In this document: positions 398 to 21,923 of the stretch, one piece after another
How the letters are laid out: each line of letters opens with the position of its first letter
How positions within the stretch are numbered: the first letter of the stretch is position 1
Assembly: GCA_026874595.1 (NCBI GenBank)
Contig: CM049310.1
Location: 3,224,001-3,288,000, forward strand
Direction: 5' to 3'
Source of the DNA: Sipunculus nudus
Lineage: Eukaryota; Annelida; Sipuncula; Golfingiida; Sipunculidae
Length of the DNA: 64,000 bases
Program-made: the position numbers and the translations under genes
The notes under the pieces: model-generated
What the model was told of the DNA's origin: nothing
Databases searched by the model: none
The model's input: the letters and a program-made list of their open reading frames with translations, nothing else

Positions 398-1500
398 AGT
401 CTCAGACAGACACAGTTCATGGTAAATGTTTTGTTTATGATGCCTGCAGGTTCCCTGTGGAGGTACATGCGGGCCAGCATGTCTTTGTCAGGGTACATCC
501 CTCCACTGTGTGATCCTGTAGACGGTCATCTGCAAAGTCTCAGACAAACACAGTTCATGGTAAATGTTTTGTTTATGATGCCTGCAGGTCCCCTGTGGAG
601 GTACGTGCGGGCCATGCAGCATGTCTTTGTCAGGGTACATCCCTCCCCTTTGTGATCCTGTAGACATTCATCTGCAAAGTCTCAGACAAACACAGTTCAT
701 GGTAAATGTTTTGTTTATGATGCCTGCAGGTTCCCTGTGGAGGTATGTGCGGGCCAGCATGTCTTTGTCCGGGTACATCCCTCCACTGTGTGATCCTGTA
801 GACAGTCATCTGCAAAGTCTCAGACAAACACAGTTCATGGTAAATGTTTTGTTTATGATGCCTGCAGGTTCCCTGTGGAGGTACATGCGGGCCAGCATGT
901 CTTTGTCAGGGTACATCCCTCCACTGTGTGATCCTGTAGACAGTCATCTGCAAAGTCTCAGACATATACAGTTCATGGTAAATGTTTTCTTTATGATGCC
1001 TGCAGGTTCCCTGTGGAGGTACGTGCGGGCCAGCATGTCTTTGTCCAAGTACATCCCTCCACTGTGTGATCCTGTAGACGGTCATCTGCAAAGTCTCAGA
1101 CAAACACAGTTCATGGTAAATGTTTTCTTTATGATGCCTGCAGGTTCCCTGTGGAGGGACATGCGGGCCAGCATGTCTTTGTCAGGGTACATCCTTCCAC
1201 TTTGTGATCCTGTAGACAGTCATCTGCAAAGTCCCAGACAAACACAGTTCATGATAAATGTTTTCTTTATGATGCCTGCAGATTCCCTGTGGAGGTACGT
1301 GCGGGCCAGTATGTCTTTGTCAGGGTACATCCCTCCACTGTGTGATCCTGTAGAGGGTCATCTGCAAAGTCTCAGACAAACACAGTTCATGGTAAATGTT
1401 TTGTTTATGATGCCTGCAGGTTCCCTGTGGAGGTACGTGCGGGCCAGCATGTCTTTGTCAGGGTACATCCCTCCACTGTGTGATCCTGTAGACGGTCATC
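398..1500 (+). repeat. Exon-derived 138-bp tandem array, 8 copies
   Basis: Eight tandem units each carry about 50 bp of intron tail (starting AGTCTCAGACA and ending TTTATGATGCCTGCAG) followed by the first ~80 bp of the PNPLA exon that encodes [27 protein letters not shown]. The exon-start positions are 450, 588, 730, 868, 1006, 1144, 1282 and 1420, so spacing is 138 bp except for 142 bp between copies 2 and 3. In copies 1-7 the exon breaks after the codons for D-G/S-H-L and passes straight into the next intron tail, so they lack the DGG catalytic motif and a 5' splice site. Only copy 8 is complete. Because 138 is a multiple of 3 and no stop occurs, one frame is open from 621 to 1595 across copies 3-8, with a 46-residue repeat. 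The 4-bp excess near 613-617 puts copies 1-2 out of frame with the rest. Copies carry several nonsynonymous differences (for example S-K-Y and W-R-D-M in place of S-G-Y and W-R-Y-V). Confidence 0.92.
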
Positions 1501-1536
1501 TTCTGCTGGATGGAGGATACGTTAACAACCTACCTG
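1420..1536 (+). CDS. PNPLA6: PNPLA6/7 (neuropathy target esterase) exon with catalytic Asp
   Basis: This exon of a patatin-like lysophospholipase encodes [20 protein letters not shown], then [18 protein letters not shown]. It closely matches the known vertebrate NTE sequence in the second half of the patatin domain. The family hydrolyses (lyso)phosphatidylcholine at the ER surface, using a Ser-Asp dyad. The Asp is in the D-G-G motif, here GAT at 1509-1511 (equivalent to human NTE Asp1086). The acceptor is TGCCTGCAG at 1411-1419 and the donor is CCTG|GTAAAG. The exon begins in phase 1 (two bases of a Gly codon) and ends with the first base of an Ala codon completed by the next exon, giving N-N-L-P-A-D-V. 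It is the last and only complete copy of the array at 398-1500. Whether PNPLA6 or PNPLA7 is the closer relative cannot be settled here; invertebrates usually have a single gene. Confidence 0.95.
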
Positions 1537-1596
1537 GTAAAGTAACTCTTCTATTATTTGTTGGGTCTGTATGTTACAGCAGTATTCTACAGTGAC

Positions 1597-17317: not shown

Positions 17318-17466
17318 CTGATGTGATGAAGACCATGGGAGCTCAGAACATTTTTGCCATTGATGTGGGAAGTCAGGATGACTCTAATCTGACTAACTAT
17401 GGTGATGAACTCTCTGGATGGTGGTTGTTATGGAAGAGATGGAACCCATGGGCAAAACCAGTCAGG
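17318..17466 (+). CDS. PNPLA6: PNPLA6/7 exon: AIDVGSQD and SGWWLLWKRWNPW region
   Basis: The exon completes the Ala codon of N-N-L-P-A-D-V and continues M-K-T-M-G-A-Q-N-I-F-A-I-D-V-G-S-Q-D-D, then L-T-N-Y-G-D-E-L-S-G-W-W-L-L-W-K-R, ending N-P-W-A-K-P-V-R. This is diagnostic NTE/PNPLA7 sequence in the last third of the patatin domain. The acceptor is CTTACAG|CTGATG and the donor AGG|GTTAGT (phase 0). The open frame starting at 17221 runs into the exon from the intron, so its ATG is not a start. The intron after it is 532 bp. Confidence 0.95.
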
Positions 17467-18514: not shown

Positions 18515-21500
18515 CTGCAAACTTCTGCTAGTTTATACATATACACATATGATACAAACTTCTGCTAGTTTATACATATACACATATGATACAAACTTCT
18601 GCTAGTTTATACCTATACACATAGGATACAAACTTCTGCTAGTTTATACATATACACATAGGATACAAACTTCTGCTAGTTTATACCTATACACATAGGA
18701 TACAAACTTCTGCTAGTGGATACCTATACACATATGATACAAACTTCTGCTAGTTTACTCATATACACATATGATACAAACTTCTGCTAGTTTATACCTA
18801 TACACATAGGATACAAACTTCTGCTAGTTTATACCTATACACATAGGATACAAACTCCTGCTAGTTTATACCTATACACATAGGATACAAACTCCTGCTA
18901 GTTTATACCTATACACATAGGATACAAACTCCTGCTAGTTTATACCTATACACATAGGATACAACCTCCTGCTAGTTTATACCTATACACATAGGATACA
19001 AACTCCTGCTAGTTTATACCTATACACATAGGATACAAACTCCTGCTAGTTTATACCTATACACATAGGATACAAACTCCTGCTAGTTTATACATATACA
19101 CATAGGATACAAACTCCAGCTAGTTTATACCTATACACATAGGATACAAACTCCTGCTAGTTTATACCTATACACATAGGATACAAACTTCTGCTAGTTT
19201 ATACCTATACACATAGGATACAAACTTCTGCTAGTTTATACCTATACACATAGGATACAAACTTCTGCTAGTTTATACCTATACACATAGGATACAAACT
19301 TCTGCTAGTTTATACCTATACACATAGGAAACAAACTTCTGCTAGTTTATACCTATACACATAGGATACAAACTTCTGCTAGTTTATACCTATACACATA
19401 GGATACAAACTTCTGCTAGTTTATACCTATACACATAGGATACAAACTTCTGCTAGTTTATACCTATACACATGTGATACAAACTTCTGCTAGTTTATAC
19501 CTATTCACATGTGATACAAACTTCTGCTAGTTTATACCTATACACATGTGATACAAACTTCTGCTAGTTTATACCTATACACATGTGATACAAACTTCTG
19601 CTAGTTTATACCTATACACACGTGATACAAACTTCTGCTAGTTTATACCTATACACACGTGATACAAATTTCTGCTAGTTTATACCTATACACACGTGAT
19701 ACAAACTTCTGCTAGTTTATACCTATACACACGTGATACAAACTTCTGCTAGTTTATACCTATACACTTGTGATACAAACTTCTGCTAGTTTATACCTAT
19801 ACACACATGATACAAACTTCTGCTAGGGGATACCTATACACACATGATACAAACTTCTGCTAGTGGATACCTATACACACATGATACAAACTTCTGCTAG
19901 TGGATACCTATACACACATGATACAAACTTCTGCTAGTGGATACCTATACACATATGATACAAACTTCTGCTAGTTGATACCTATACACATATGATACAA
20001 ACTTCTGCTAGTGGATACCTATACACATATGATACAAACTTCTGCTAGTGGATACCTATACACATATGATACAAACTTCTGCTAGTTGTTCCTTAAGAAA
20101 GTGTCCGTGTACGCGTGTGGGGAGCCATCTTGTCAAGTTAGCGTTCGCGCAAGGCACACTGGGACGAAATAGGTGGCTGTTCTGTTTACCACCCACCGCG
20201 TACAGCCGTTCAAAATATTCTTAGCAGAACACCAGGGCGTTTCAGCACATGGCGGCACTCAAACTTGATTTTAAAACGATCGTCAGCCATTATGCGACTC
20301 TTTACGATGTCAGCTTTATATTCATTTTACTTTTTTAAACAAATAATCGTTGCTAAATAACACTGCAAATGAGTTTAAAGAAGGCATTTACTTCAATGTT
20401 GCTTGACCATGCCCAACGGGCCGCTGTGTTACAGTTGGGGTGTTTTAAACGTATTATTTGGTGACAATTACCAAGATTTTTTATAACAAGTTATATATCG
20501 CACGAAAGATATACATGTCAAGGTTCTACATATAAGTTTTTATATGTATACCACGAGCCGTGATTAAGTTCCTGCAGGTTGAAAATCTGACAGTCTCAGC
20601 AGTCTTAGCCATCATGTCGCCCCCTGAACGCTACTGCGTGATGGTGCGTAATAGTGGATAGTATTCAGGCTTTTTGCTTCAATAAATGTACATATAAACC
20701 TCAATTCAGTGTTCATACTATGGTCTTTTACATGTAAAGAAGCGTGTTGATGCATACAAGAATCGTTTTGCGTAACCACCATTCAAACGAAACGATCGTT
20801 CGGGGAATCTTTCTTTTTCTGATAAATGCCTGCCAATCCATGTGCAAAAGTCGTTAGGGACAAAATATCTATATTGTCCCTATCTCGAGCATTAAATATG
20901 TTTAATATACGTAATCTGCCAACATATTTAACCTCTGTAATTAATATTTTTTTATTCTAGTCTTCATTAAAGCAGCTATGTCGTGATTTATTTTGCTACG
21001 TGCAACTAATTATCTTACCCATCAGGCCAGAGACGGAGTCGGGGTGCGGCCTTTAAGGGGGGTTTTGGGTATTTGGACCTCAGTGGGAGTTCCTTTAAGA
21101 GACGTTGCAAACTCAGGGTGCCGCTATAAATAGACGTGCGGCCATAAAAACAAGATTTACGGTAGGTATAAACTAGCAGAAGTTTGTATCATATGTATAT
21201 AGGTATCCACTAGCAGAAGTTTGTATCATATGTGTATAGGTATCCACTAGCAGGAGTTTGTATCATATGTGTATAGGTATAAACTAGCAGAAGTTTGTAT
21301 CATATGTGTATATGTATAAACTAGCAGGAGTTTGTATCATATGTGTATAGGTATCCACTAGCAGAAGTTTGTATCATATGTGTATAGGTATCCACTAGCA
21401 GGAGTTTGTATCATATGTGTATAGGTATAAACTAGCAGAAGTTTGTATCATATGTGTATATGTATAAACTAGCAGGAATTTGTATCATATGTGTATAGGT

Positions 21501-21923
21501 ATAAACTAGCAGAAGTTTGTATCATATGTGTGTAAAGGTATAAACTAGCAGAAGTTTGTATCATATGTGTATAGGTATAAACTAGCAGGAGTTTGTATCA
21601 TATGTGTATAGGTATAAACTAGCAGAAGTTTGTATCATATGTGTATAGGTATACACTAGCAGAAGTTTGTATCATATGTGTATAGGTATACACTAGCAGA
21701 AGTTTGTATCATATGTGTATAGGTATCCACTAGCAGAAGTTTGTATCATATGTGTATAGGTATCCACTAGCAGAAGTTTGTATCATATGTGTATAGGTAT
21801 CCACTAGCAGAAGTTTGTATCATATGTGTATAGGTATCCACTAGCAGAAGTTTGTATCATATGTGTATAGGTATCCACTAGCAGAAGTTTGTATCACACA
21901 TATGATACAAACAGGGTTTGCAG
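18515..21923. mobile_element. Foldback-like element built from 37-bp minisatellite arms
   Basis: The left arm (18515-20086) is about 42 head-to-tail copies of a 37-bp unit: GATACAAACTTCTGCTAG plus TTTATACCTATACACATAG and variants. The right arm (21163-21900) is about 20 copies of the same unit in inverse orientation. The outer edges are CTGCAAAC (18515-18522) and GTTTGCAG (21916-21923), exact inverse complements. A 1.1-kb spacer separates the arms. Long inverted arms made of short tandem repeats are the hallmark of foldback elements. It sits wholly in the intron 18152-22037, so the transcript could form a very long hairpin. Confidence 0.75.
20087..21162. other. Spacer between foldback arms
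   Basis: Unique-looking and richer in CpG than the arms, with no convincing open frame. Its right edge, read on the minus strand, begins TACCGTAAATCTTG and soon has TGGCCGCACG, resembling the terminus of the TIR element at 1597-3130. No matching opposite end was found, so one half of such an element may have been lost. Confidence 0.5.

Follow-up and report, generated by a model that had tools for sequence, protein, structure and literature searches.

The closest described systems are the mirages of amphioxus, minisatellite-like tandem duplications of a 5' or 3' exon-intron border with units of 10 to 160 bp, many of which keep the AG or GT while the true exon stays intact; they are described from Adh3, the globin genes BflGb6 and BflGb9, troponin C and PGBD5 (PMC3087553, PMC3902484). 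RT-PCR was reported to suggest that splicing is undisturbed by a mirage, and 6 and 3 units of one were found on two haplotypes (PMC3087553; also PMC3902484). The array described here, which lies in the gene of a conserved, PNPLA6/NTE-like lipase at the beginning of a 64,000-nt window (the whole stretch of DNA that was analysed), and its counterparts in the same genome likewise consist of border-spanning tandem units with retained splice signals and an intact true exon. By structure, the NTE array belongs to the mirages; splicing neutrality and length instability are reported for those of amphioxus. In contrast to the amphioxus cases, the arrays of this genome reach 25 units, the NTE unit is a triplet multiple with five upstream acceptors that read into the true exon without a stop, and the sample investigated was rich in border arrays, with more of them at exon edges than expected. 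The mirage class itself is already known; new are a host that is probably a mollusc, the high frequency and the enrichment at exon edges. The molluscan affinity was read from one muscle-myosin exon, for which the 8 best PDB sequences are scallop and squid entries (85-86 bits, the next one 76); a second exon did not discriminate. No report of mirages or border minisatellites in molluscs was recognised among the titles and beginnings of abstracts surveyed, mostly of freely accessible papers, which is weak evidence of novelty.

For the human IFI6 (6-16) gene, Turri et al. reportedly described in 1995 a minisatellite with multiple splice donors; its unit measures 12 bp. Two downstream repeat donors are reported to be used, which results in three mRNA species (PMC4526556). 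IFI6 shares with the NTE array a minisatellite laid over a splice site, with many equivalent splice sites as the outcome; it differs by its location on the donor side, its short units and the use of its repeat donors, whereas the NTE array occupies the acceptor side with 138-bp units. Tandem arrays and intron gain via duplicated segments that bear splice sites are said to be the subject of Zhuo et al. 2007 ('Modern origin of numerous...'). In intron gain through tandem duplication, new introns emerge within repeated exonic sequence (PMC2812944). This process and the NTE array have in common that sequence bearing splice signals is repeated in tandem within a gene; in the latter, the copies accumulate intronward of a border that already existed, and no newly formed intron was seen.

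The window corresponds to C5:3224001-3288000 of the 1.43-Gb assembly, and its first kilobases hold part of the PNPLA6/NTE-like gene on the + strand. In an alignment to a PNPLA6 sequence, exons were traceable from about C5:3182510 to C5:3246700, and the true exon that terminates the array agreed with this sequence at 81%. The preceding exon (...DITASKMRVHTSG, then gtaggt) ends at C5:3223910, just upstream of the window, and joins in phase 1; the frame in which the array was read follows from this phase. The array takes up 1,022 nt (window 398-1419) of the 1,509-nt intron before the true exon. When the 1.43-Gb assembly was searched with window 1380-1560 for a second copy of the locus or a haplotig, none was found: all 8 of 8 matches fell within C5:3224410-3225560, in a search that skips very common words and so leaves the uniqueness of the locus unproven. 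Further downstream in the same gene, two arrays of 37-bp units (window 18518-20087 and 21163-21896, about 1.1 kb apart) are, judged from their consensus units, apparently mutual reverse complements; they may be the two ends of a mobile element with a minisatellite in it. At C8:44841783-44852893 and C8:46650202-46658193, patatin-like matches occur in clusters and, in contrast to the NTE gene with its many exons, lie in single open frames of up to about 500 aa.

Table 1. Repeat units, exons and splice-junction arrays (positions refer to the window unless a contig is named; period in bp x copy number for the kinesin/myosin arrays)
Feature	Position	Strand	Remarks
Tandem array, 8 units x 138 bp	398..1501	+	last unit is the real exon start
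Exon-half copy 1 with acceptor	450..531	+	not open to true exon
Exon-half copy 2 with acceptor	588..673	+	4-bp insertion; not open to true exon
Exon-half copy 3 with acceptor	730..811	+	open into true exon
Exon-half copy 4 with acceptor	868..949	+	open into true exon
Exon-half copy 5 with acceptor	1006..1087	+	open into true exon
Exon-half copy 6 with acceptor	1144..1225	+	open into true exon
Exon-half copy 7 with acceptor	1282..1363	+	open into true exon; G to A at the first base of the exon
True PNPLA6/NTE-like patatin exon	1420..1536	+	117 nt; donor GTAAAG from 1537
Donor-like ATG/GTAAAT, 7 of 8 units	422..1393	+	GT at 422, 560, 702, 840, 978, 1116, 1392
Next exon of PNPLA6/NTE-like gene	17318..17466	+	limits set visually at an AG and a GT
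NTE gene, 55-bp acceptor array, 19 units	C5:3192106-3193153 (L004:6106-7153)		about 9-12 nt of exon each (IIMVRLQRV...)
NTE gene, 68-bp donor array, 25 units	C5:3219837-3221538 (L001:3837-5538)		38 nt of exon end each (...KRVFSKRAKQKV); GTGAGT donor
Acceptor-side array L028			31 x 15.3
Acceptor-side array L038	C14:445630-446658	-	72 x 6.7; kinesin exon
Acceptor-side array L053			61 x 6.1
Acceptor-side array L077			60 x 4.2
Acceptor-side array L087			61 x 7.4
Acceptor-side array L091			43 x 2.4
Donor-side array L045			86 x 4.4
Donor-side array L089			52 x 9.8
Donor-side array L142			36 x 13.1
Donor-side array L137			35 x 3.1 (alternative TRF row: 61 x 3.0)

The 138-bp tandem array was confirmed by Tandem Repeats Finder (8.0 copies, 94% matches, score 1962), and its repeat nature far exceeds chance. 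Each unit is composed of about 52 nt of intron end, 82 nt of exon start and the four bases GCAA (56 nt on the intron side if these are included); the unit joins read CATCT-GCAA-AGTCTC, and GCAA, which is like neither flank, looks like a 4-bp filler. The first exon bases of the units are located at 450, 588, 730, 868, 1006, 1144, 1282 and 1420, i.e. at spacings of 138, 142, 138, 138, 138, 138 and 138, the one deviating value being caused by a 4-bp insertion in copy 2. Unit 8 is the start of the real exon itself and continues from acceptor 1420 into the complete exon. The splice AG is kept in all eight units, and each of the seven upstream copies has one or more bases that depart from the majority. 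As in the mirages, the repeat spans the exon-intron border with units made of intron and exon sequence, the splice signal is kept in many units, and an authentic, complete exon border stands at the exon end of the array. The frame is open from the third to the seventh acceptor (730 to 1282) through to the exon end at 1536, and closed from 450 and 588. The initial annotation had described seven truncated exon copies, each with its own acceptor, at an exact 138-bp spacing: the copies and their acceptors were recovered, the exact spacing was not. Its statements that five acceptors read without a stop into the complete exon and that copies 1 and 2 do not were borne out, the 4-bp excess residing in copy 2.

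Two sister arrays occupy other exon borders of the same gene (Table 1). Their periods of 55 and 68 bp are not multiples of 3 and both run into stops when read through, so that neither can represent an in-frame insertion. In the 68-bp donor array the first unit is the true exon end, and the GT is kept in 25/25 units; in the 55-bp array, 7/19 units carry AAG in place of CAG at the splice site, and the scattering of the two variants along the array suggests higher-order turnover. By our own reading, the joins of the sister arrays share 2-3 bp of sequence (CA; GTG), and the join sequences of the NTE arrays would fit end-joining or slippage at the DNA level. In total, 3/8 arrays of the NTE gene are situated at exon borders versus 0.41 expected (P=0.005), a value that assumes 25 exons (about 24 exon places are visible) and comes from a gene picked because of one array.

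The recurrence of such arrays was examined around 185 exon matches (131/131 kinesin and 54/77 myosin matches) with 450 bp on each side, corresponding to 140 stretches and 182,116 bases. Reading the candidates one by one revealed 10 arrays that clearly cross an exon border; L006 and L109 were weak and stand outside these 10, and the candidates L061, L032 and L101 were judged not to cross the border. Including the three of the NTE gene, there are 13 clear junction arrays (8 acceptor, 5 donor), which, like the amphioxus mirages, affect several unrelated genes and both 5' and 3' borders in the sampled NTE, kinesin and myosin exons. Among array loci with a period of 20-200 and at least 2.4 copies, 10/21 clearly cross a border, compared with 2.3 by random placement (P=2.4e-5); at a threshold of 1.9 copies the proportion is 10/31 versus 3.3 expected (P=8e-4). 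In an automatic count, an array reached into 9/185 exon matches over a length of one unit or less where 1.46 were expected (p=1.9e-5), and 10/185 versus 2.69 at 1.9 copies (p=4e-4); the automatic nine include the array judged weak by eye in L006 and miss L045 and L053, in which TRF stops before the matched exon. As a control for this count, pseudo-exons with the median length of the exons were placed in the introns on either side, and 147 of 18,669 such placements qualified (0.79%, bootstrap range 0.38-1.24%). Splice-junction arrays are frequent in the sampled part of the genome, with an excess at exon edges; this part comprises two gene families and the NTE gene of one genome, with exon ends taken from profile matches and control placements that overlap. 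Whether splice junctions act as birth sites of minisatellites in this lineage, with duplications arising or surviving there several-fold more often than in the adjacent introns and affecting about one exon in 20, is a tentative proposal to which we give somewhat less than even odds.

With these arrays at hand, the open frame of the NTE array loses its distinction. A triplet unit with an open frame, as expected of a coding minisatellite, is present (138 bp, open from 730) but lies within chance: for a unit like that of the NTE array the probability of an open frame is about 0.11, and among the 8 acceptor arrays 1.26 triplet and open cases were expected and 2 seen, several intron-part lengths in this sum being estimated by eye. 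The second case is the 72-bp array L038, where four of the upstream acceptors read in frame into the true exon without a stop and two others fail to do so. Periods divisible by 3 were found in 4/13 clear junction arrays (138, 72, 60, 36), as chance predicts. The in-frame unit of the NTE array is, accordingly, nothing special.

Divergence between the NTE copies is no lower in the exon part than in the intron part: 22/656 positions are changed in the former and 8/424 in the latter (p=0.19), a count that excludes the 8 filler cells of copies 1 and 2 with their 7 differences (intron part 15/432 before exclusion). The distinct exon-part changes comprise 10 non-synonymous and 5 synonymous ones (p 0.55-0.78), 25-29% synonymous changes being expected, and alter the repeated peptide, with Y to D, P to L and G to K among the replacements. 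In these small numbers, which would accommodate weak selection, the repeat peptide showed no sign of selection, be it purifying or positive. The substitutions between the NTE copies look neutral. Over the 8 alignable arrays (102 units extracted by stepwise alignment), there were 135/2976 changes in the exon part versus 110/2921 in the intron part (p=0.15), or 117/2929 (p=0.33) with filler included. This alignment left out 7 of 15 candidate arrays as too short or diverged (L045, L053, L077, L091, L137, L006, L109). Splice dinucleotides were changed at 3/204 positions compared with 245/5897 other sites (p=0.068, filler excluded) or 252/5905 with filler cells counted (p=0.049), a weak test, the units sharing ancestry and not being independent; it is the sole result leaning towards a maintenance of decoy sites, at which it could hint.

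Taken together, the NTE array is best explained, with a probability of about 80%, as a mirage, a minisatellite that took its start from an exon-intron border and the upstream copies of which would be neutrally drifting intronic decoys. In this scenario, about 52 nt of intron and 82 nt of exon on the two sides of the 3' splice junction, a segment of about 134 bp, would have undergone tandem duplication, with 4 bp of filler between the copies, and would have grown to 8 units, presumably via unequal exchange or slippage. The true exon is most likely defined from donor 1537 with use of acceptor 1420, which yields 117 nt, while the other acceptors would give exons of 255 to 1,087 nt. As the core acceptors of the copies are practically identical to the true one, the choice of acceptor must rest on context; it speaks against the decoy interpretation that nothing recognisable in the local sequence accounts for 1420 being the one acceptor used, and a misuse of copy splice sites appears possible in principle by analogy to IFI6. 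Acceptor 1420 would be expected to dominate with an occasional leak: if splicing strayed to the acceptors from 1282 to 730, the protein would gain 46-residue repeats ahead of the catalytic Asp loop, probably to no advantage, and if it strayed to 588, to 450 or to the donor-like sites, the reading frame would be lost.

A regular use of the upstream acceptors, by which one to five 46-residue repeats would be inserted into the patatin domain and NTE isoforms be generated, agrees with the five open acceptors and the retained AGs, and the repeat splice sites of IFI6 that are reported to be used (PMC4526556) provide a precedent. Such a coding minisatellite is nevertheless improbable in view of the neutral substitutions, including the replacements in the repeated peptide named above, the two copies closed to the true exon, the non-triplet sister arrays and the triplet periods at chance rate; moreover, the repeats would fall into the conserved patatin core, directly before the DGG loop. 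As the main interpretation it was rejected after the substitution tests and the frame statistics. The initial annotation had left the choice between decoy splice sites and a coding minisatellite producing NTE isoforms: the decoys are the likely alternative given neutral copies and recurrence, the isoforms the unlikely one, and the neutral substitutions now found between the copies belong to what the annotation itself had named as speaking against the coding alternative.

The repeated splice sites could also tune NTE expression, by poison exons or splicing rate and nonsense-mediated decay. Together with the preceding acceptors, the donor-like sites could close six frameshifting pseudo-exons of 110 nt, one of them of 114 nt, and the splice dinucleotides are somewhat under-changed; but the donor-like sequence fits 7/9 positions of the consensus by our own comparison, reads AT in place of GT at 1254, is placed just 28 nt before the next acceptor, and similar arrays exist on unrelated kinesin and myosin exons. 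Because of the latter, a function of the array specific to NTE was rejected, and a regulatory array in general is hardly to be expected. That the NTE array was inflated or misassembled is most improbable: one amphioxus mirage was reported to be aberrantly assembled in a draft genome (PMC3087553), but here all seven upstream copies differ from the majority, one of them by a 4-bp insertion, one unit is the exon edge itself, and independent arrays of other unit, length and orientation occur in other genes.

In the NTE array, eight near-identical acceptors compete for one donor, a clean case that puts exon definition directly to the test. Frequency and over-representation of junction arrays at exon edges are more interesting than the single NTE array; both the recurrence across the genome and the membership in the mirage class had escaped the initial annotation. 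If the wider result is true, mirages, so far reported from a few genes of lancelets, would be common in a second phylum of animals, and the questions would be why exon edges seed minisatellites, how splicing stays accurate amid dozens of equal sites and whether these arrays give rise to new exons and introns. Splice junctions as birth sites would, in addition, amount to a natural experiment in which the choice of splice sites is probed throughout the genome, and would keep supplying material from which exons and introns could newly form. In such genomes, repeated half-exons may be included in gene models by mistake.

A third gene sample, by PF00270, was left out of all counts; 33/51 of its matches and 17/20 of the loci cut out are located on contigs C61-C138. 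DEAD helicase matches on these contigs are mostly whole-domain and intronless with identical scores on many small contigs, C89 carrying the match twice at a distance of about 2.1 Mb; contigs C61-C138 are probably bacterial (symbiont or contaminant). A muscle myosin exon (NPVLEAYGNAKT...NNNSSRF) is present in four similar versions at C2:44848109-44852698 (L120, L121), which follow each other 0.7-1.2 kb apart and are probably mutually exclusive exons.
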